DNA of 22,439 nt from a virus. The notes under the pieces were generated by a model that had not been told where the DNA came from, did not search any database, and saw nothing but the letters and a program-made list of their open reading frames with translations. Below, piece after piece: positions 1 to 20,078 of the stretch. Within the stretch, counting starts at the first letter, position 1. Each line of letters begins with the position of its first letter. The position numbers were made by a program, and so were the translations under genes. Location of the stretch: positions 1-22,439 of IMG/VR virus record IMGVR_UViG_3300028920_001543. The stretch is one strand, 5' to 3'.

Positions 1-8
1 CCCCTTTC

Positions 9-28
9 CGGGGGCCCTAAGGCCCCCG
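9..28 (-). terminator. GC-rich hairpin past the minus-strand genes, possible terminator
   Basis: Perfect 8-bp arms CGGGGGCC and GGCCCCCG close a 4-base CTAA loop. The hairpin begins 22 bases beyond the stop of the last minus-strand gene, where a transcription terminator is expected. No T-run follows in the minus direction (the next bases read GGAAAGGGG), so it may be Rho-assisted or only an RNA-stabilising 3' structure. The hairpin behind the capsid genes at 17259 has the same core (five G, CC, four-base loop, GG, five C), which supports a shared function. Confidence 0.45.
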
Positions 29-42
29 TGTGTGTTTCCGCT

Positions 43-80
43 AGTTGTTGTCATGCTTCCAAGTTGTTGTCATGCTTCCA
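43..80. repeat. 19-bp tandem duplication at the 3' end of a minus-strand gene
   Basis: The unit AGTTGTTGTCATGCTTCCA occurs twice head to tail, at 43-61 and 62-80, without a mismatch. It covers the end of the minus-strand gene at 51-269. Because 19 is not a multiple of three, the second copy is read in a different frame and supplies the present stop codon. With a single copy the protein would end at a TAG after WKHDNN, instead of continuing for LEA. Confidence 0.85.
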
Positions 81-269
81 AGATGTGTGCCAGGTTTCCC
101 ATGCGGCTTGCTGCGCGACCCAGAGCATCGGGACCAGGGCCGGAGGGAGAGAAACACCATCTTCCTTCAGACCCTTAGCCTCGATCCAGAGCCGCCTCAT
201 AAGCGAATCCGCCTCGCTAACCCGTTCCATCAGATTCCGGACCTGCACCTTTTGTTCTTCCGTGTTCAT
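51..269 (-). CDS. Hypothetical small protein, 72 aa
   Basis: A 72-residue cytoplasmic-looking protein beginning MNTEEQKVQVRNLMERVSEA. It has a charged, probably helical first half and a tryptophan-containing tail (MLWVAQQAAWETWHTSWKHD). The start at 269 is chosen over an upstream ATG at 338 because a GGAAGG Shine-Dalgarno lies 10 bases ahead of it. The whole initiation region is also identical to that of the next gene upstream (322-594), down to the first five residues MNTEE. It is the last of three minus-strand genes, probably in one operon from the promoter near 912-940. Its C-terminus was altered by a 19-bp tandem duplication. No family is recognised. A small early or accessory phage protein is a guess from position only. 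Confidence 0.6.
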   Translation of the reverse strand: MNTEEQKVQVRNLMERVSEADSLMRRLWIEAKGLKEDGVSLPPALVPMLWVAQQAAWETWHTSWKHDNNLEA

Positions 270-288
270 TTGGAACCAACCTTCCGTT
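253..288 (-). repeat. 36-bp direct repeat, copy 1 (translation-initiation region)
   Basis: Identical over 36 bases to 578-613. On the minus strand it contains 19 bases of leader with the GGAAGG ribosome-binding site, the ATG, and the first five codons plus two bases (MNTEE). Identity ends abruptly on both sides. Confidence 0.9.
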
Positions 289-321
289 CCGGGGACTCCG
301 CAGTGCCCCCCGTGTGCGCGG

Positions 322-594
322 CTACTGAACAATGGCATTCTTGACCCTGCGCGTATTCAGGTGAAAGCATTTCTGGCAGAGGTCGGAGACTGGCACCCGG
401 CCGTAAGGATTCGGGATGGTGTAGTCCGCCTTGACCCATTTGCCGCAGGCAAGGCAGGAAGAACCAGAAAGCTGCAGGTGAATCTTTCTTCCGGTCCTGC
501 CACCTCGGGCGATGTAGACGTCTCCTGGAAGACCCTCGCTGAGGGTTTCGAGATCGATCATCGTTCTGATTTCCACGTGTTCTTCCGTGTTCAT
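322..594 (-). CDS. Small zinc-ribbon protein, 90 aa
   Basis: A 90-residue protein with two CxxC pairs, CLAC (C47, C50) and CQKC (C73, C76), 22 residues apart: a four-cysteine zinc-ribbon or treble-clef knuckle. The N-terminal half (MNTEEHVEIRTMIDLETLSE and onwards) has no recognised motif. Such small zinc proteins are common in phage accessory regions and often bind nucleic acid or a host protein; which applies here is unknown. The ATG at 594 has GGAAGG 10 bases upstream, inside the 36-bp repeat shared with the downstream gene. The gene upstream ends 18 bases before it, and the gap to the next gene is 52 bases, consistent with an operon. The start is firm, the function open. Confidence 0.65.
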   Translation of the reverse strand: MNTEEHVEIRTMIDLETLSEGLPGDVYIARGGRTGRKIHLQLSGSSCLACGKWVKADYTIPNPYGRVPVSDLCQKCFHLNTRRVKNAIVQ

Positions 595-613
595 TTGGAA
601 CCAACCTTCCGTT
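578..613 (-). repeat. 36-bp direct repeat, copy 2 (translation-initiation region)
   Basis: Second perfect copy of the element at 253-288, placed identically relative to the start codon of the gene at 322-594. Its outer end touches the TAA stop of the upstream gene at 613-615. Confidence 0.9.
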
Positions 614-858
614 TAGTGCCCAGCTTCGTCCACGTTCAATTCGCGATCAGCTACCCAGCGACCGTCTTCGTCATACGCTACCAGAGCGCCGAATTCGTCG
701 TCGAACAAGCCGACAAGCCCCGCGGTTGTCTGGTCCCGCACGAAAGCGTCGATCGCAGCGCGACCGCTCGGAGCCTCGAGCATGCAGACGCAACTCTTCC
801 ATGCGAAGAGAAATCCGCGCGCATTCGCGCCAAACGCATCAATCTGAAATCTGGCCAT
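613..858 (-). CDS. Hypothetical acidic small protein, 81 aa
   Basis: An 81-residue protein starting MARFQIDAFGANARGFLFAW and ending in an acidic stretch (LFDDEFGALVAYDEDGRW, then DRELNVDEAGH). The middle (MLEAPSGRAAIDAFVRDQTT) looks like a compact alpha/beta fold, but no family is recognised. The start at 858 is chosen because GGGAGG lies about 9 bases upstream; longer readings reaching 954 lack such a site. It is the first gene of the minus-strand cluster, 18 bases before the zinc-ribbon gene. A candidate promoter at 912-940 would give a leader of roughly 45 bases. An early accessory protein is plausible by position only. Confidence 0.6.
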   Translation of the reverse strand: MARFQIDAFGANARGFLFAWKSCVCMLEAPSGRAAIDAFVRDQTTAGLVGLFDDEFGALVAYDEDGRWVADRELNVDEAGH

Positions 859-911
859 GGAATCAAACCTCCCGTTTTTCAAGCCCTGCCGGAACCCATC
901 CCGACACAACA

Positions 912-3987: not shown

Positions 3988-6900
3988 ATGAGAGCACTGC
4001 GCCCGCTTGCCTCGATCTTGTTTCTGGGGGTCCTGTTGGCTTGCGCTGTGGGTACTGGATCGAGGGCTGACGGCCCTCATGGCATGTATCCAGAAGGCTA
4101 CTGGCCGACGAATTTCAAGCGCTCGTCGAACCCGTTCTCCCCGATCGTAGCACAGAAGATGCTGGTCACCCCCGTCGAGGGGACCGATCACATCCTGGAC
4201 TACTATGACAACCTCGAGTCGACTGCTGACTCGGTTGTCGATATCGGAACCGACTACACGGGCTACTTCGCGTATGGCCTGTGGTCTACCCAGTCGACCG
4301 ACTCGTTCGCGATCAACAGCTCCGCCCAGGGCAAAAACTTCCGCTACGGCATGTGGGCCCCCTCGCCTGACTCCCTCAACCCATGGGACGATAGCGGTGT
4401 CCACTACGGCTCGATGGTCTACATCGACTGGAAGTCGGTCCTGCCACCTGGCTCGGACGTGATCTCCGCGAAGCTGCACTTCACTGCCGGCGGCCAGCAG
4501 AATATCGGCGCTCAGGATACCCTCGTTGCTGTTCTGATGACCAATCCAGCCGATTCCGCCTGGTATCGCTACGTTGGCGCCAATACCAGAGACTTCATGT
4601 CCTTCTGTTCCCTGATGTACCAGCGCCAGGGCGTTAACGATGCTGCAGCCGGCGATCAGGCTACCCTCACTTCTCGCGGCTTCCCCGCTAAAAGCGGCCC
4701 GGCCTGGGATCCGGAGATCACCAGCCGCACCCGTGAATGGGACTGGGGCGACTACGCCGACTGGTCCTGTGACGGCGGAGACCAAGGCTTCGGTACTGCA
4801 TCACACACAGCAGACAGCCTGTTTACTATCGATATCACAAATTGCGTCCGAGCCGCGAATGCTGGGCGCGTGAACAACGGCATCTTCCTGTACAAGAAGG
4901 ACGATTCTTCAATCGGGTATACCCAAATACGGCACTTCGACCCGACCTCGCCGGATGATAACGAGTTCGCGTTCTTCGAGATCGACTACGTCACCAGGGT
5001 CCAGAAGCCGCGCTGGCCGAACCAGGCCAAGTACGCCTTCGTCTTCTGTACCGACGACTGGCGCCGCAACGCGAATATGGCCTACAAGGCCGTTTTTGAT
5101 ACGTTCGATAGCCGGATCCCCGGTGGCGCGAAGATGACCATCTTCGGGTCTGCCAAGCACTACCCGAACGCTAACGTGCTGACCCTCGGCCAGGTACAGC
5201 AGTTCATCCGAGACGGCCACGAGGTCGGCTTCCACTCCATGTGGCACGCGAACGATGCCGGCGGCCTCGACGGATTCACCAGATACCGCGTGGCCACCGA
5301 CGAGATGATAGTCAATGAGTATACACGGGGCATGTACCCGGACACGCTCACTGCATCTGCTACCAACTGGGACAGCCTGCTATACGACTCCGACCCCGAA
5401 TGGCTGTACTACGTACTGGAAGACTCTCTCGGCGTGGACTATCGCAATCACCCGCTGGTCGGCAAGTCGATGGCCCTGCCGTTCAACATGTTTGACCCGG
5501 CCACCCTGCAGGCGATGGCCTACCACAACTACCTTGGGGTGCGCGGCAACCCGGTTGGCAACCTCACCCTGGCAGACGGGAACCGAACCTTCGGCGTGAA
5601 GGCCACTACTGGGTTCGCTGATACCGACACCATGTGGGCCTGCTGGGGCAACAGTCACGCTGAGTTTGTTAACCCGGTGAACGCGACCCTGTTGCCGCCC
5701 TGGGTTTCTTCAAATGCCCTCGTGGGCGACAGCACGGTCGCTGCAACGGTGGACGACTACATTATCAAGAACCGGGTGCGGCGCTGGGCGCGGCAGGTAT
5801 CTGCGGGCGACTTCGGTGTGTTTGGCATCTACACGCACGATCTGCGCACCGAGGCCGGCAAGACGGGCGGCTATAGCAACGGTATCGACGCTGCCGAGCT
5901 GGAGGTCATCCTCCAGGCCGTCGAGGAGACTGGCGGCTGGGTCTGTACCGTGAGCGACATGAAGCGCTGGATGCGTTCGCAGGCGGTCGCCGACTCGATT
6001 CCCAGCGGATGGGGCCAGGACGGCACTGCCTGGGACTTCACCGCCGAAGACGACAACTGGTATCTGCCGATGACGCCCGCTGGGCGAGACACCAACCGCG
6101 GCATGCTCTGGACGGCGGCGATCTCTCGAGTTACCGAGGCCGGCGAGTATCCGTATCTATCTGGTGCCTGGCGCGGGGGCCCGGCCCTGGACCGGAAGCT
6201 CCACTACAAGTGGCAGCCGCACTATGACTCTCCGACCCACCACTCGCGAGTTACTACCTGGACGGAGCTGACCGCGGCCTCGTCCTCGTTCGCTACCGCC
6301 GGCCTGATTGGCGACAACATTCCGCTCATGGCCTTTTCGGGCGACACGATCTCGTGCCGGCTGCTTTTGCAGGAGAGTGGAGGCGCCTGGTTCGCTGCGG
6401 ACAGCCTGACCTATGTCGTGCCGACCCTGCCATCGATCGTCACTCCGCTGGCTGCGGCGCCAACGCCCGAGGTTGGCCGCATGTGGCGGACCAACTACGA
6501 CCTGGACTGGTACTCGGCCGGCGCAACTCCGGCTAACCCGATGCCGGACTCGTCGACTAACGACTACCTCGACTACAAGGTCTTGCAGTGGAACCTATGT
6601 GAGGCCAGCAACTACGACATGGACCCGATCCAGTGGATCAAGAACACCCGCTCGATGTACAACGACGACTTCATGCCGGCGCTCTATGTCCACTACTTCG
6701 GGTTCCGCAAGCCGTGGGGGTCTGCCTCGGCCGGCAGCTACCAGCGCCGCATGCATGACGCACTGATTCCGTATCGACCGGTCTACATCAATGGCGACAC
6801 CGTGAGCCACTACTTCAGCGGCGACAGCAACGTCTACTGGCTCTTGAACCCCCTTCAGGAGGCCGGGATCGACTCGCTGATCTCCATCCAGATCGAGTTC

Positions 6901-9900
6901 ATGTTCCGCAACGGCTGGCTCGATTTGCCGTACACGGGCGTGTTCATCGACTGGGCTTACAGCGACTACCCGAACTGGCCGTGTGACGGCGGCGACTGCA
7001 CTGACTTCCTTGACCTGGACGTCGACGGGACAGGGCACGGGTCTGATGCCAACGAGCAGGCGGCCTACGATACGGCGGTCGATTCGTTCTTCACCAAGCT
7101 CAGGCGCAGACTGGACCACGTCAGGGGCGACGAGACTGCCCTGATCGTCAACAACGGCGATGCTGCGGAGCAGCGGGCCTCCGCAGGTGCCCTGCTCGAC
7201 GGCGAGATGATCGAGCACATCTTCAACGAACGCATGAACACCACCGAGGAGTTCGAGGCGCTCGGGCCCAGCGGGACCTACCAGCAGCGGTTCACCAATG
7301 CGCGAGTAGACCCGCCGCTTTTGATCCTGGCCGAGCAGGACACGCTCGACGGGGTCCGGGTGTCAACGGCGCTGCTGGCTGAATGCGGTGCCAACATGAG
7401 CCAGACCACCAGCACGAGCTGGTCGGATATCGCCCACCAGTACGGCTACGACTGGTTCGCGGCCAGCGATCCAGTTTTCGGGCCGGTGTACAGCACGGTT
7501 GGGTCTGAATGTACGGCGTACAGCGTCTACCCGAGCGGGTGGATTGTCGCCATGAACTTCGAGGAGGGTAGCTACACCAAGAACACGGTTCCGTACCCGT
7601 ACATCGTGTACCAGAACAACGAAGCCAACGCGATCTACGACGGCAACTGGGGAACCCTGCTGCTGGATCAGCCGGACGTTTCGATCTCGCACCCTGACAC
7701 AACCACCACGACCACGATCGGCCGTGGTGCGACCCTCGATGCAACTGCGGACTCCGTGATGGTCCTGGTGTCCAAGGATTTCGCGGCCGGTGTCATCGAT
7801 ACGTACTACTCGACCGATGACGACAGCATCCAGAACATCCGGCTTCTTCTGGGCGAGGGCGACCACATCCTGGCCACCAAGTCCATGCGGACCATTCTGG
7901 ACGGCTACGCCGGACCGTATTATTCGGCGGCCGACACGGACACTGTGCGTCTGGAGCGCGGCAGTGTCATGGAGATTGACAACGTCTCCGGGACCCTGGA
8001 GCACGGGCAGACGCTCACGATCACTGGCGTTGGCTTCGGGACGAAGGCATCGGCGCCCCCCACGGTGTTCGACTCGTTCGAGTCGGGGACCAACAACCAG
8101 GTGTTCGGGCCGAGCCCTATCGGCGATGTCGGGGAGTACTCGGTCTGGGGCAGCGAGGGCGGCAACTTCCGCCGTCCGCGCTACAGGGAGAACAGCGAGC
8201 GCGCCTGGGGCGGCGACTTCTACGCCGAGGAGCATCCACTAAGTGAGGCCGATTTTTTCACCGGCTTCTACAAGATGCACCACGACTGGGAAGATAGCTT
8301 CGGTACCAAGACGATGTATGCCTCGATGAAGGTCAGGATTACCACGAACGCTCAGGGCGGCCCGTGGGGCAGCGGCTCGTTTGTTAACCCATCCGTGTCA
8401 CAGAAGCTCTTCCGGCTGACGTCTTACAACCGTGGGCCGGGAATGCCGCCGCAGCATGGCAATCCGAACCTGTGGCTGGCGAAGTCCGGCGGCACGAGCG
8501 TGGTCGGGTACTACCTGCTCAACTCTGGCATCGGTGCCCAGGGGGCATACCTGGAGCACAACTGGTCCGACTGGACGGGCATGAATGACGTCTGGGTCGA
8601 CTGCCACCTGTGGATGAAGATCGGCACCGACGGCAACACCGATGGCCTGGCCGGGCACTTCTGGAAGGCCGAAAACGGCCTAGCGTTCAGCGTTCGCGAC
8701 TCGACTGGCATGGAGACCTATACCGAGGAGGGGCCCGATTACCCCGACGAGCTGCCGCTCATTCGTGGCCTGCGGGCCGTGGCTTGGTCCTGCCAGCCCG
8801 GCGGCTGGGAGCCTGACGAGCTGTACCTGGCGTGGGACAACCTGTATGCCGACACCTCGCTGGCCCGCGTGATCATCGGTGACAACTCCGAATACTACAC
8901 CTGCCGGACCTGGGAGCCGCAGCCGCCGACCGCCTGGGCGGATGACGAGATCCAGGTCACGGCCAACCTGAACCACTGGTTCGACAGCGAGGGCGCCACC
9001 ATCGACACGCTGTACGCGTGGGTGGTCGACACAGACAACAACGTCAGCGACCAGGACACCACGGTGGCCGGCAAGCAGGGCAAGCCGATCGCCATGACCC
9101 CGGACAGGCCGACGTTCATCAGCACGGTTGCCGGTGAGTTCAAGACGGCCTCGGCCTGTAGCGTGACGATCCGGGGCTTCAGCTTCGGTACAAAGAACCC
9201 GGCGGCTCCGCTGATCTGGGAGGACTTCGACGACTTCGCGGCGGAGTCGCGCCTGGACTCGACCCTGGCTGGCGGACAGCGGTGGAGCATTTACAGCGAC
9301 AACGATAGAGGTTTCGACATCCCACGAGCCTGCGACTGGTCGCATCGAATCAAGTACACTGGCGACATCATCGCGCGGTTCATTTATCCAGAACACAGCC
9401 ACCCGGACAACTACCAACGCGACATCATCTATAAGCCGCTCTACGGAATGTCGGCCGATCCAGACGTCGACTACCTCGGGCCGAGCGACCGTTTCTACTG
9501 GTCGATGTGGAGTCTTTCCGATTTCCCCGGCCCAGAAACGGCCGACCCCGAAACGAAGCAGTGGAAGCGTGCTCGCCTATCAGACGGGCCATACAACGCT
9601 GACACCGAGCCTTATATCGGCTGGTTCTGGCATAGAGCGTTACCAGACCCGCCGAATAACAACCCCCCCGGCCGTCCCTTTATGTGCTGGACCGACGACC
9701 AGCTGGGCTCAACAGGCTCGGCGTACTGCCCCGACCTGGTCGGCGGGCAGGCGTCGCAACAGTTCGTGTACGATATCCCCGATACGGGTGTATGGAACTG
9801 CTTCGAGATGTACGGCCAGCTTGACAGCGGAGCACAACAGTGCGATGCGCGAGTTTGGGCCTACATGAACCAAGAGGCGATCGTTGAGGAGAACGACCCG

Positions 9901-10308
9901 AAGGCCGCAAGCGTCGGGCTGTTTATCGACGATGAAAGTGGTCCCGGTGAAATGTGGGTTGGTGAGTATATACAGCAAGCCTCGCATCAATTCGAGTGCT
10001 TCTGGGATGACATCTATTTCGATGATACCTGGGCTCGGGTGATACTTGGCAACGCCGAGCAATACGACGATTGCACCTATATCCAGCTCCAGATCCCATA
10101 CTACTGGGACGACAACTTGATCTCGTTCAAGGTCAACCTGGGCGAGTGGCCGTCGGGGTACACCGGTTACCTGTACGTCGTGACCGCAGACGGGGAGTTC
10201 TCGGATGCGGATCTGTCGACGCCGGCAATTGACGGCAAGAGAGTGCTGATCTGGACTGGAGAGGGCGAGAAGCCCGGCGACGACGAGTTCGAGGAGTGGG
10301 CACCGTAG
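3988..10308 (+). CDS. Giant secreted protein: polysaccharide deacetylase-like, glycosidase-like and duplicated lectin-like modules
   Basis: A 2106-residue exported protein. Residues 1-28 form a signal peptide, either lipoprotein (LLAC, C19) or SPase I type (SRA before D28). Residues about 45-330 resemble a DNRLRE-type beta-sandwich (YIDWKSVLPPGSDVISAKLH). Residues about 340-660 resemble NodB polysaccharide deacetylases: TDDW (D356, D357), HSMWH (H416, H420) and YTHD (H617) match the metal-binding and C-terminal histidine motifs. Residues about 825-1220 resemble putative TIM-barrel glycosidases, with GVFIDW (D988) and LLDGEMIEHI (E1073). Two homologous modules of about 380 residues follow (1328-1705 and 1708-2106). 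Each opens IPT-like (VGFGTK / FSFGTK) and ends with WDNLY/WDDIY, ARVI and a short beta domain, perhaps lectin-like. Likely role: modifying surface polysaccharide. Whether it is free, lipid-anchored or virion-bound is unknown. It lies unusually between terS and terL. Confidence 0.75.
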   Translation: MRALRPLASILFLGVLLACAVGTGSRADGPHGMYPEGYWPTNFKRSSNPFSPIVAQKMLVTPVEGTDHILDYYDNLESTADSVVDIGTDYTGYFAYGLWSTQSTDSFAINSSAQGKNFRYGMWAPSPDSLNPWDDSGVHYGSMVYIDWKSVLPPGSDVISAKLHFTAGGQQNIGAQDTLVAVLMTNPADSAWYRYVGANTRDFMSFCSLMYQRQGVNDAAAGDQATLTSRGFPAKSGPAWDPEITSRTREWDWGDYADWSCDGGDQGFGTASHTADSLFTIDITNCVRAANAGRVNNGIFLYKKDDSSIGYTQIRHFDPTSPDDNEFAFFEIDYVTRVQKPRWPNQAKYAFVFCTDDWRRNANMAYKAVFDTFDSRIPGGAKMTIFGSAKHYPNANVLTLGQVQQFIRDGHEVGFHSMWHANDAGGLDGFTRYRVATDEMIVNEYTRGMYPDTLTASATNWDSLLYDSDPEWLYYVLEDSLGVDYRNHPLVGKSMALPFNMFDPATLQAMAYHNYLGVRGNPVGNLTLADGNRTFGVKATTGFADTDTMWACWGNSHAEFVNPVNATLLPPWVSSNALVGDSTVAATVDDYIIKNRVRRWARQVSAGDFGVFGIYTHDLRTEAGKTGGYSNGIDAAELEVILQAVEETGGWVCTVSDMKRWMRSQAVADSIPSGWGQDGTAWDFTAEDDNWYLPMTPAGRDTNRGMLWTAAISRVTEAGEYPYLSGAWRGGPALDRKLHYKWQPHYDSPTHHSRVTTWTELTAASSSFATAGLIGDNIPLMAFSGDTISCRLLLQESGGAWFAADSLTYVVPTLPSIVTPLAAAPTPEVGRMWRTNYDLDWYSAGATPANPMPDSSTNDYLDYKVLQWNLCEASNYDMDPIQWIKNTRSMYNDDFMPALYVHYFGFRKPWGSASAGSYQRRMHDALIPYRPVYINGDTVSHYFSGDSNVYWLLNPLQEAGIDSLISIQIEFMFRNGWLDLPYTGVFIDWAYSDYPNWPCDGGDCTDFLDLDVDGTGHGSDANEQAAYDTAVDSFFTKLRRRLDHVRGDETALIVNNGDAAEQRASAGALLDGEMIEHIFNERMNTTEEFEALGPSGTYQQRFTNARVDPPLLILAEQDTLDGVRVSTALLAECGANMSQTTSTSWSDIAHQYGYDWFAASDPVFGPVYSTVGSECTAYSVYPSGWIVAMNFEEGSYTKNTVPYPYIVYQNNEANAIYDGNWGTLLLDQPDVSISHPDTTTTTTIGRGATLDATADSVMVLVSKDFAAGVIDTYYSTDDDSIQNIRLLLGEGDHILATKSMRTILDGYAGPYYSAADTDTVRLERGSVMEIDNVSGTLEHGQTLTITGVGFGTKASAPPTVFDSFESGTNNQVFGPSPIGDVGEYSVWGSEGGNFRRPRYRENSERAWGGDFYAEEHPLSEADFFTGFYKMHHDWEDSFGTKTMYASMKVRITTNAQGGPWGSGSFVNPSVSQKLFRLTSYNRGPGMPPQHGNPNLWLAKSGGTSVVGYYLLNSGIGAQGAYLEHNWSDWTGMNDVWVDCHLWMKIGTDGNTDGLAGHFWKAENGLAFSVRDSTGMETYTEEGPDYPDELPLIRGLRAVAWSCQPGGWEPDELYLAWDNLYADTSLARVIIGDNSEYYTCRTWEPQPPTAWADDEIQVTANLNHWFDSEGATIDTLYAWVVDTDNNVSDQDTTVAGKQGKPIAMTPDRPTFISTVAGEFKTASACSVTIRGFSFGTKNPAAPLIWEDFDDFAAESRLDSTLAGGQRWSIYSDNDRGFDIPRACDWSHRIKYTGDIIARFIYPEHSHPDNYQRDIIYKPLYGMSADPDVDYLGPSDRFYWSMWSLSDFPGPETADPETKQWKRARLSDGPYNADTEPYIGWFWHRALPDPPNNNPPGRPFMCWTDDQLGSTGSAYCPDLVGGQASQQFVYDIPDTGVWNCFEMYGQLDSGAQQCDARVWAYMNQEAIVEENDPKAASVGLFIDDESGPGEMWVGEYIQQASHQFECFWDDIYFDDTWARVILGNAEQYDDCTYIQLQIPYYWDDNLISFKVNLGEWPSGYTGYLYVVTADGEFSDADLSTPAIDGKRVLIWTGEGEKPGDDEFEEWAP

Positions 10309-18794: not shown

Positions 18795-20078
18795 ATGAAC
18801 GCCCTTCGCAAGACCTGGTTTCTCTGGGCGCCGCTTCTGTTCGTGGTGCTCGTAGTCGGGCTCGACATCAGGGAGATGCAGCGTGAGGCTGAAGCGCAGA
18901 CGGTGACGGGAATTTGGCGCCGGACGGGCCTAGAAGACCTGTTCTATGGCGGCACAGACCAGGCTTTCATCTACGGCTCCGGGGACACGGTCACCACCCA
19001 GGGCCTGCTGCCGCTGGATGCTCGCTGGATGGGTGTCCAAGCCGGGGCCAACGTCACCGACAGCCTGCAGGCGGCGATTGACTCGGCCGCGGTGTGGGAA
19101 ACGGCGGTCTATCTGCCCGGCGGGTCGTACACGGTGGACTCCCTGGACGTCCCTGACGGGATGGTGCTGTATGGCGACGGCATGGGCCAGACCCAGATCA
19201 ACCATGCCCCCGGCTATACTTGCCCGCTGTTCTACAACTCCGCCGACATTCAGGACGTGCAAATAAGAGACATCGGCATTGTGATGACGGCCAACAGCGA
19301 GGCGGCCATCAAGTTCGACGACTGTGCTCTGGGGGTGTTCGAGCGCATCAGGGTCGCGGTTGGAGGATGTGACAACGCGGCCTTCATCTTGGACAGGACC
19401 GGCGGCAGTGGATACTACAACACCTTCTACGACTGCTCTGTGGCTGGCGCCGACACTCTGACCTACGGCTGGAAGTTCTTGTCGGGCGCCAACGAGAACC
19501 GCCTGATAGCCTGTCGCACCACAGGAGTAGACACAGCGGTACACATCGCTAACGCCAACGGCATCCACATCTCCGATTGCTCGTTTGAGCAGTTCGAGTG
19601 CGGCATCCGGGTGCCCAACACGGCGTCGGACAACACCTGGATAACCAACAACCGGTTCGAAGTGAACCGGGCCTGGGGCGACTGGGGTACGGGCGTTCTA
19701 GTCCCCGGCTTTAACACGGTAACCCGCCTCATGGGCAACTGGTATTCTGGCGTGGCGACCGAACTAGACGACAGCTCTCTTGTCGCCTTGCAGGTTCTCG
19801 ATCATTCAGTAACCAGCCTGCGCACGCTCAAGTTTGGTGCGCACGCAGATGCCGGGATGGCCAGCTCTCTGAACATGCGCAACTACAATATCAGGATGAA
19901 TGCGGCCTCTACTGACCCGATGATAATCTGGGGCACAGCCCCGCCTAACGGCAGCGTGTCAGCAGTTGGTGGCAGCATCTACCTGCGCGAGGACGCGAGC
20001 GGCTCCTCTGACTCGACCTTCTACATCAAGACCGGCACGGGCAACACCGGTTGGGTGTGTGTGAACGACGGGATGTAG
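18795..20078 (+). CDS. Tailspike-like beta-helix protein with N-terminal membrane/signal segment
   Basis: A 427-residue protein. Residues about 7-24 are strongly hydrophobic (TWFLWAPLLFVVLVVGLD) after a basic MNALRK, followed by REMQREAEAQ: either a signal anchor or a signal peptide cut after AEA. Residues about 75-300 form a pectate-lyase-3-type right-handed beta-helix (VQAGANVTDSLQAAIDSAAV; YLPGGSYTVDSL; GIHISDCSFEQFECGIRVPN). The C-terminus (GSIYLREDASGSSDSTFYIK; GTGNTGWVCV) matches a closing motif common in phage tailspikes and fibres. It sits between neck and tail-hub genes, where receptor-binding or depolymerase spikes occur. The membrane segment is odd for a virion spike, which normally folds in the cytoplasm and attaches through an N-terminal domain. 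Polysaccharide binding or cleavage is probable. Confidence 0.75.
   Translation: MNALRKTWFLWAPLLFVVLVVGLDIREMQREAEAQTVTGIWRRTGLEDLFYGGTDQAFIYGSGDTVTTQGLLPLDARWMGVQAGANVTDSLQAAIDSAAVWETAVYLPGGSYTVDSLDVPDGMVLYGDGMGQTQINHAPGYTCPLFYNSADIQDVQIRDIGIVMTANSEAAIKFDDCALGVFERIRVAVGGCDNAAFILDRTGGSGYYNTFYDCSVAGADTLTYGWKFLSGANENRLIACRTTGVDTAVHIANANGIHISDCSFEQFECGIRVPNTASDNTWITNNRFEVNRAWGDWGTGVLVPGFNTVTRLMGNWYSGVATELDDSSLVALQVLDHSVTSLRTLKFGAHADAGMASSLNMRNYNIRMNAASTDPMIIWGTAPPNGSVSAVGGSIYLREDASGSSDSTFYIKTGTGNTGWVCVNDGM

Follow-up and report, generated by a model that had tools for sequence, protein, structure and literature searches.

Two adjacent small genes of an uncultured tailed phage begin with the same 36 bp, and we consider it probable that a translation-initiation segment was copied here by recombination, which would have left one of the two genes, g2, between direct repeats and deletable as one 325-bp unit. 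The analysis covered a 22,439-bp linear record, a fragment of the phage, which we refer to in its entirety as the window. Copying of the start segment is strongly supported by the sequence comparisons set out below, from which we further infer that the copying was recent, that the genes are translated and that g2 is subject to gain or loss.

A perfect repeat over two gene starts

Positions 253-288 and 578-613 are identical over all 36 bp, as the preliminary description had reported, and the flanking bases differ on both sides. The window has no longer exact repeat than this pair; in order-1 simulated windows (n = 200), the longest exact repeat did not exceed 18 bp, half of the observed length. 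On the minus strand, both copies cover a start region, also as first described, and contain the Shine-Dalgarno (SD)-like GGAAGG, a 10-base spacing, the ATG and the rest of the MNTEE codons, plus the first two bases of codon 6. The first copy (253-288) belongs to g1, with the A of the ATG at 269, and its exact match (578-613) belongs to g2, with the ATG at 594, so that the register is the same on both ATGs, from -19 to +17. The synonymous positions of NTEE are all equal between the g1 and g2 starts, and the first base of the second copy doubles as the final base of the TAA stop codon of the neighbouring gene g3.

Past the 36 bp, homology was not significant, including the GGGCACT found upstream of both copies (downstream p = 0.21-0.43 and upstream p = 0.11-0.33, depending on the scoring). 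The proteins encoded beyond the repeat had been called unrelated, which is likely without being absolute: outside the repeat the local alignment score of g1 and g2 was unremarkable (p = 0.26), whereas residues 6-25 showed a weak similarity (p = 0.04, 20,000 shuffles). We treat the latter as a hint in the sequence that is not counted as evidence of homology, and record it for the explanation by paralogy considered below. The start region is weakly structured (-3.8 kcal/mol, centroid unpaired), its SD pairing amounts to -6.5 kcal/mol, and it folded no better than its shuffles. A regulatory RNA was rejected on this shuffle-level fold and on the lack of any Rfam match in the window.

Three genes are involved, all on the minus strand. 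The gene g1 (51-269, 72 aa, beginning MNTEEQKVQVRN) is an open reading frame (ORF) with an ATG and an SD; g2 (322-594, 90 aa, beginning MNTEEHVEIRTM) carries two CxxC motifs and is the gene bracketed by the repeat; and g3 (613-858, 81 aa, beginning MARFQIDAFG) is the first of the three in the leftward direction. No relative was found for any of them. Searches of Pfam, NCBIfam, PHROGs and PADLOC gave no match to g1, g2 or g3 at the curated cut-offs, the match of g1 to FdhE (E 0.05) lying far under the family cut-off, and tblastn against phage records returned no match. None of the three was found in viral contigs, nor g3 in genome contigs, and tblastn at E ≤ 1 in 72 loci gave only four matches, all to g1, short and weak.

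Codon scores trained on 12 plus-strand reference genes of the window amounted to 0.135, 0.106 and 0.182 bits per codon for g1, g2 and g3, respectively, compared with 0.314-0.603 for the reference genes themselves and -0.230 for a 384-aa plus-strand ORF (28-1182) that runs across all three. Because the scores of g1-g3 are positive and that of the plus-strand ORF is negative, the minus-strand reading is favoured; the plus-strand reading, in which the repeat copies would also fall in different frames, was rejected. The coding scores of g1-g3 are nevertheless low, which weighs somewhat against their translation. Near 1,400-1,600 the negative GC skew becomes positive, which is what divergent leftward and rightward transcription would produce, and g1-g3 are best read as a short leftward gene cluster. 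Between the leftward and rightward groups lie about 800 bp without a convincing gene (860-1700), which contain the skew switch and may be a divergent control region or an origin.

At its 3′ end, g1 contains a tandem duplication of 19 bp (43-82, minus strand, with a 21-bp exact overlap), by which the stop codon is displaced and the protein lengthened by three residues (LEA). The two longest exact repeats of the window thus mark the start and the end of one small gene. Beyond g1, at the contig edge, a GC hairpin with an 8-bp stem (9-28) is strong and terminator-like, with a T-rich tail on the plus side and a fold z-score of -3.9 (positions 1-52, minus strand).

A diverged leader at the third gene

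A third, diverged copy of the leader part precedes g3 (856-876, minus strand) and ends at its ATG (858); the preliminary description had overlooked it, as it had the tandem duplication. The g3 start reads AACGGGAGGTTTGATTCC-ATG, and its leader agrees with that of the repeat at 17 positions, with one gap and two mismatches, over AACGGAAGG-TTGGTTCCA. The bases preserved outside the SD are AAC before it and TTCC after it. The pattern AACGGRAGGTTN{0,1}GRTTCCN{0,2}ATG, which was composed from the same three sites, matched the window three times, at the leaders of g1, g2 and g3 only, with none expected from 100 shuffles.

Compared with random places in the window, the g3 leader gave values of 0 and 0.0002 under two scorings, in a control that skipped the first 950 bases yet kept them in the denominator. 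By gapped alignment, g1, g2 and g3 alone reached a leader score of at least 11, the score observed for g3, among 503 SD-bearing ATG starts from 39 sequences (the window, its relatives, T7, T4 and two cluster K phages), a set that includes nested starts and some overlapping loci. Some start scored at least 11 in 19 of 200 simulated windows, each represented by the best of about 900 starts, and a blind genome-wide search would therefore not call the g3 leader. We take it as real, though as less certain than the perfect pair, because g3 is the one neighbour where another copy was to be sought. Judged by this comparison, all three genes of the leftward cluster have a common leader.

A possible fourth copy, at a plus-strand gene (2726-2887) with GGAAGGT, a 9-base spacing and ATGAACATGGAA, is in register but was rejected as being at chance level: it agrees at 17 of 33 positions without gaps, and 15 of 100 simulated windows reached at least 17 when starts with an ATG and an ORF of at least 40 codons were considered.

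Rarity, relatives and known systems

Among 43 non-redundant stretches (552,650 bases, reduced from 69 sequences and including the window), the window alone had a repeat of at least 20 bp that covers two gene starts in one register, and start-overlapping repeats of 16-19 bp occurred in two others (L034 and L026). The 21-bp plus-strand match that the scan returned for the window is the tandem duplication at 43-82 and involves no gene start. As positive controls, the scan found in T7 the promoter common to genes 1.6 and 4.3 (25 bp, -28 to -3) and in the mycobacteriophages Pixie and Angelica it recovered the start-associated element SAS; among the repeats listed for these two phages, exact start-overlapping repeats extended no further than +4. 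A 20-bp repeat reaching +9 was present in none of T7, Pixie, Angelica and the first 30 kb of T4.

Exact direct repeats of at least 24 bp, 60-3,000 bp apart, were detected in four of the 43 stretches, the window included; in two of the other three the sequence is repetitive. Dispersed repeats in L061 and L026 were set aside because they belong to a repetitive protein or to simple repeats, which for L026 was judged from the letters only. In L015, from the relative G001, a 34-bp direct repeat of 94% identity (7483-7516 and 8486-8519) brackets about 1 kb that holds a 56-aa ORF and a 268-aa ORF, the latter matching a sulfotransferase below the Pfam threshold (E 0.0095). One of the copies falls within the last part of a membrane-like ORF of 41 aa, and the second covers the stop codon of the 268-aa ORF; this is possibly a further case of gene acquisition between short repeats, situated at 3′ ends.

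On its plus strand, the window has genes for a large terminase (PHROG phrog_2, E 3e-16) and a major head protein (phrog_9953, E 1e-41), besides one for a portal/adaptor-like protein and additional structural genes. No phage record matched the first 8 kb in distant blastn or the terminase in tblastn. The nearest viral contigs have 39-49% terminase identity (11 loci), and a profile search extended the terminase relatives down to 27% identity (34 loci in all). A 22-mer of the repeat and the degenerate leader were each found in 0 contigs of the viral_contigs set, and a 24-mer of the repeat in 0 contigs of genome_contigs. The 68 phage and three plasmid records returned by distant blastn with the 36-mer were rejected as its source and attributed to chance: none covers 80% of the 36 bases, and the matches listed have E values of 1 or worse, the named features being unrelated genes.

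Several further features of these genomes were observed in passing. An ORF of 2,106 aa in the window (3988-10308) has no Pfam match at E 0.01, and parts of it, to the eye, presumably resemble polysaccharide deacetylases. The product of 18795-20078 is of the beta-helix, pectate-lyase-like type (match to Pfam PF12708 above the cut-off, E 2e-7) and is likely a tail spike. In four relatives (L023, L026, L034 and L035) the terminase match is stretched over 2.1-2.4 kb for about 490-500 residues, which indicates that the ATPase and nuclease parts are split by inserted DNA; in L034 and L035 this DNA carries an ORF of 135 aa whose match is SprT-like but weak.

The closest published parallels come from mycobacteriophages. 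Genes 67 and 68 of Island3 are described as having about 60 bp in common at their 3′ ends, with a single recombinant copy in Brujita (PMC3029335). We reproduced this arrangement from the records: 53 of 58 bp agree, the copies are 257 bp apart, and the one Brujita copy joins both flanks. As in the comparison of Island3 67/68 with Brujita 66 (cluster I), the window has neighbouring, different small genes and a short direct repeat that runs into coding sequence, and the bracketed gene is an ORFan (85 aa in Island3, whose sister phage Brujita is single-copy). The Island3 repeat, however, takes in the stop codon and sits at the 3′ ends of its genes, whereas that of the window is perfect and lies at the 5′ ends over the start, and a single-copy relative such as Brujita was not found for the window. 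In LRRHood, a 1.35-kb insert is reported between 29-bp direct repeats, with related phages being single-copy (PMC3029335). Here too, short perfect direct repeats flank extra gene content, but the LRRHood repeat, as described there, occupies the end of one gene and a place upstream of a second, the insert comprises four genes, and the donor gene is recognisable. These cases are characterised by near-perfect direct repeats of about 30-60 bp that flank gene content; in the window, 36 of 36 bp agree at a spacing of 325 bp and g2 is the gene flanked. In the published accounts, phages with this geometry, Island3/Brujita and LRRHood, do show gain or loss.

The position of the repeat resembles that of the SAS/ESAS elements of cluster K mycobacteriophages, which are reported where the ribosome binds in many non-structural genes that are unrelated to one another; the SAS is given as a 13-bp sequence, GGGATAGGAGCCC, present in 11-19 copies per genome, about half of them with an upstream inverted repeat, and its authors proposed a role in translation initiation and named the repeats as possible recombination targets (PMC3203893, PMC12699233). 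All three leader copies of the window likewise lie directly before a start, 0-2 bases from the ATG. By inspection, the leader reads AACGGRAGGTTNGRTTCC and differs from the SAS consensus by more than the two deviations allowed, and the window, which is a fragment, holds three copies in 22,439 bp instead of 11-19. Unlike the SAS, the repeated leader segment measures 36 bp and reaches +17. A promoter of the T7 type would be repeated upstream of the SD and outside the gene, which does not agree with a repeat that spans -19 to +17. In the modular theory of phage evolution, exchange takes place where gene boundaries have short homology (PMC3029335); such boundary or linker sequences are common to different phages, whereas the repeat of the window is found within one genome.

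In the window case, the Island3 geometry occurs at the position typical of the SAS. What is new is the location, a whole initiation site with five codons in common, and not a class of system, and the principle has largely been published, for 3′ ends and for the SAS. The literature searched yielded no further useful parallels, and we claim absence from print only within that scope.

Origin of the repeat and its consequences

The reading that we prefer, a copied start segment that leaves g2 deletable, would proceed as follows. Three small leftward ORFans would employ one common initiation leader, and this leader together with the first 17 coding bases would recently have been copied, either through duplication or through recombination with a relative that had the same start region. 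The copy would keep each gene translatable, as it supplies the SD-like site, the spacing, the ATG and unstructured, A-rich first codons. The copies could then act as substrates of homologous recombination, single-strand annealing or replication slippage, with loss of g2 (325 bp), and through exchange with a second phage a gene could be inserted or replaced downstream of this start. As read from the sequence, a crossover between the copies loses exactly 325 bp and leaves g3, the leader and g1 intact and in frame. The equal synonymous codons and the common leader outside the SD argue for a common DNA origin and not for convergence on a ribosome site, and the sharp repeat edges combined with unrelated bodies point to recombination at, or copying of, the start site.

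Selection on a start-associated regulatory sequence, an mRNA or DNA site through which a phage or host factor would control the translation or transcription of the cluster in the manner of the cluster K SAS, would account for a leader that stands at three of three consecutive starts, each time directly before the ATG, and for the survival of AAC and TTCC around the SD in the diverged copy. We nevertheless regard this explanation as unlikely: the first two copies remain identical 17 bases into the genes while the third has none of that coding part, the leader is missing from the plus-strand genes, where the best ungapped agreement is the chance-level one at 2726, and with only three copies, two of them identical, one recent copying event suffices. 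Somewhat less likely still is that g1 and g2 are old paralogues, which would have arisen by tandem duplication, with the bodies diverged or one of them replaced and the start kept or homogenised by gene conversion. Their adjacency on one strand and the weak resemblance of residues 6-25 agree with such an origin, but the remainder of the proteins cannot be aligned, the DNA identity stops sharply at both repeat edges, and the two CxxC motifs of g2 have no counterpart in g1.

The preliminary description had named as damaging to its reading the case that the repeat is absent from relatives and arises from an assembly artefact. It is indeed absent from the relatives found, which have only 27-50% terminase identity, and the diverged third copy argues against an artefact. 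The record is an uncultured linear fragment, and two strain variants might in principle have been joined at a common word during metagenome assembly; yet each copy has unique flanks and a distinct ORF, the diverged third leader occurs where the pattern predicts it, and the GC skew is smooth through the cluster, all of which makes such a joining very improbable.

Under the preferred reading of a copied start segment, the earlier suggestion that the repeat is a site of deletion and gain of small genes holds for the structure, with perfect 36-bp repeats flanking g2 and precedents in Island3/Brujita and LRRHood; gain/loss events were not seen among the relatives found. As g1, g2, g3 and the leader were absent from every relative found, we put forward the gain or loss of g2 as what the arrangement would permit. 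Among the relatives and contigs searched, no genome had the leader or g1-g3, with or without g2, and hence neither an empty site nor a direction of change was seen. The further suggestion of a mobile expression cassette goes further than these observations allow: the leader was found nowhere else, has no recombinase-like attachment and occurs at only three consecutive starts. The diverged g3 leader does, however, speak for one start region having been used more than once.

A 30S initiation complex extends over about -20 to +15/+19. If the closeness of the repeat, at -19 to +17, to this footprint is no coincidence, selection would have kept what translation needs and left the flanks free to vary. 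A more far-reaching possibility, which we consider doubtful, is that new small genes enter the genome of this phage, or of its lineage, when foreign frames come to lie behind a portable, footprint-sized start site. If this were true, the three leaders, one old and two identical, would represent successive uses of one start, and new genes would be expressed at once and could be shed through recombination.

The repeat bears on how phages acquire their many small working ORFans. Repeats at mosaic boundaries are a rare finding, and at most boundaries they are described as unidentifiable (PMC3029335). A repeat that extends over the whole start site would keep expression whichever gene follows, and would thereby offer a concrete and testable route for the gain and loss of single genes.
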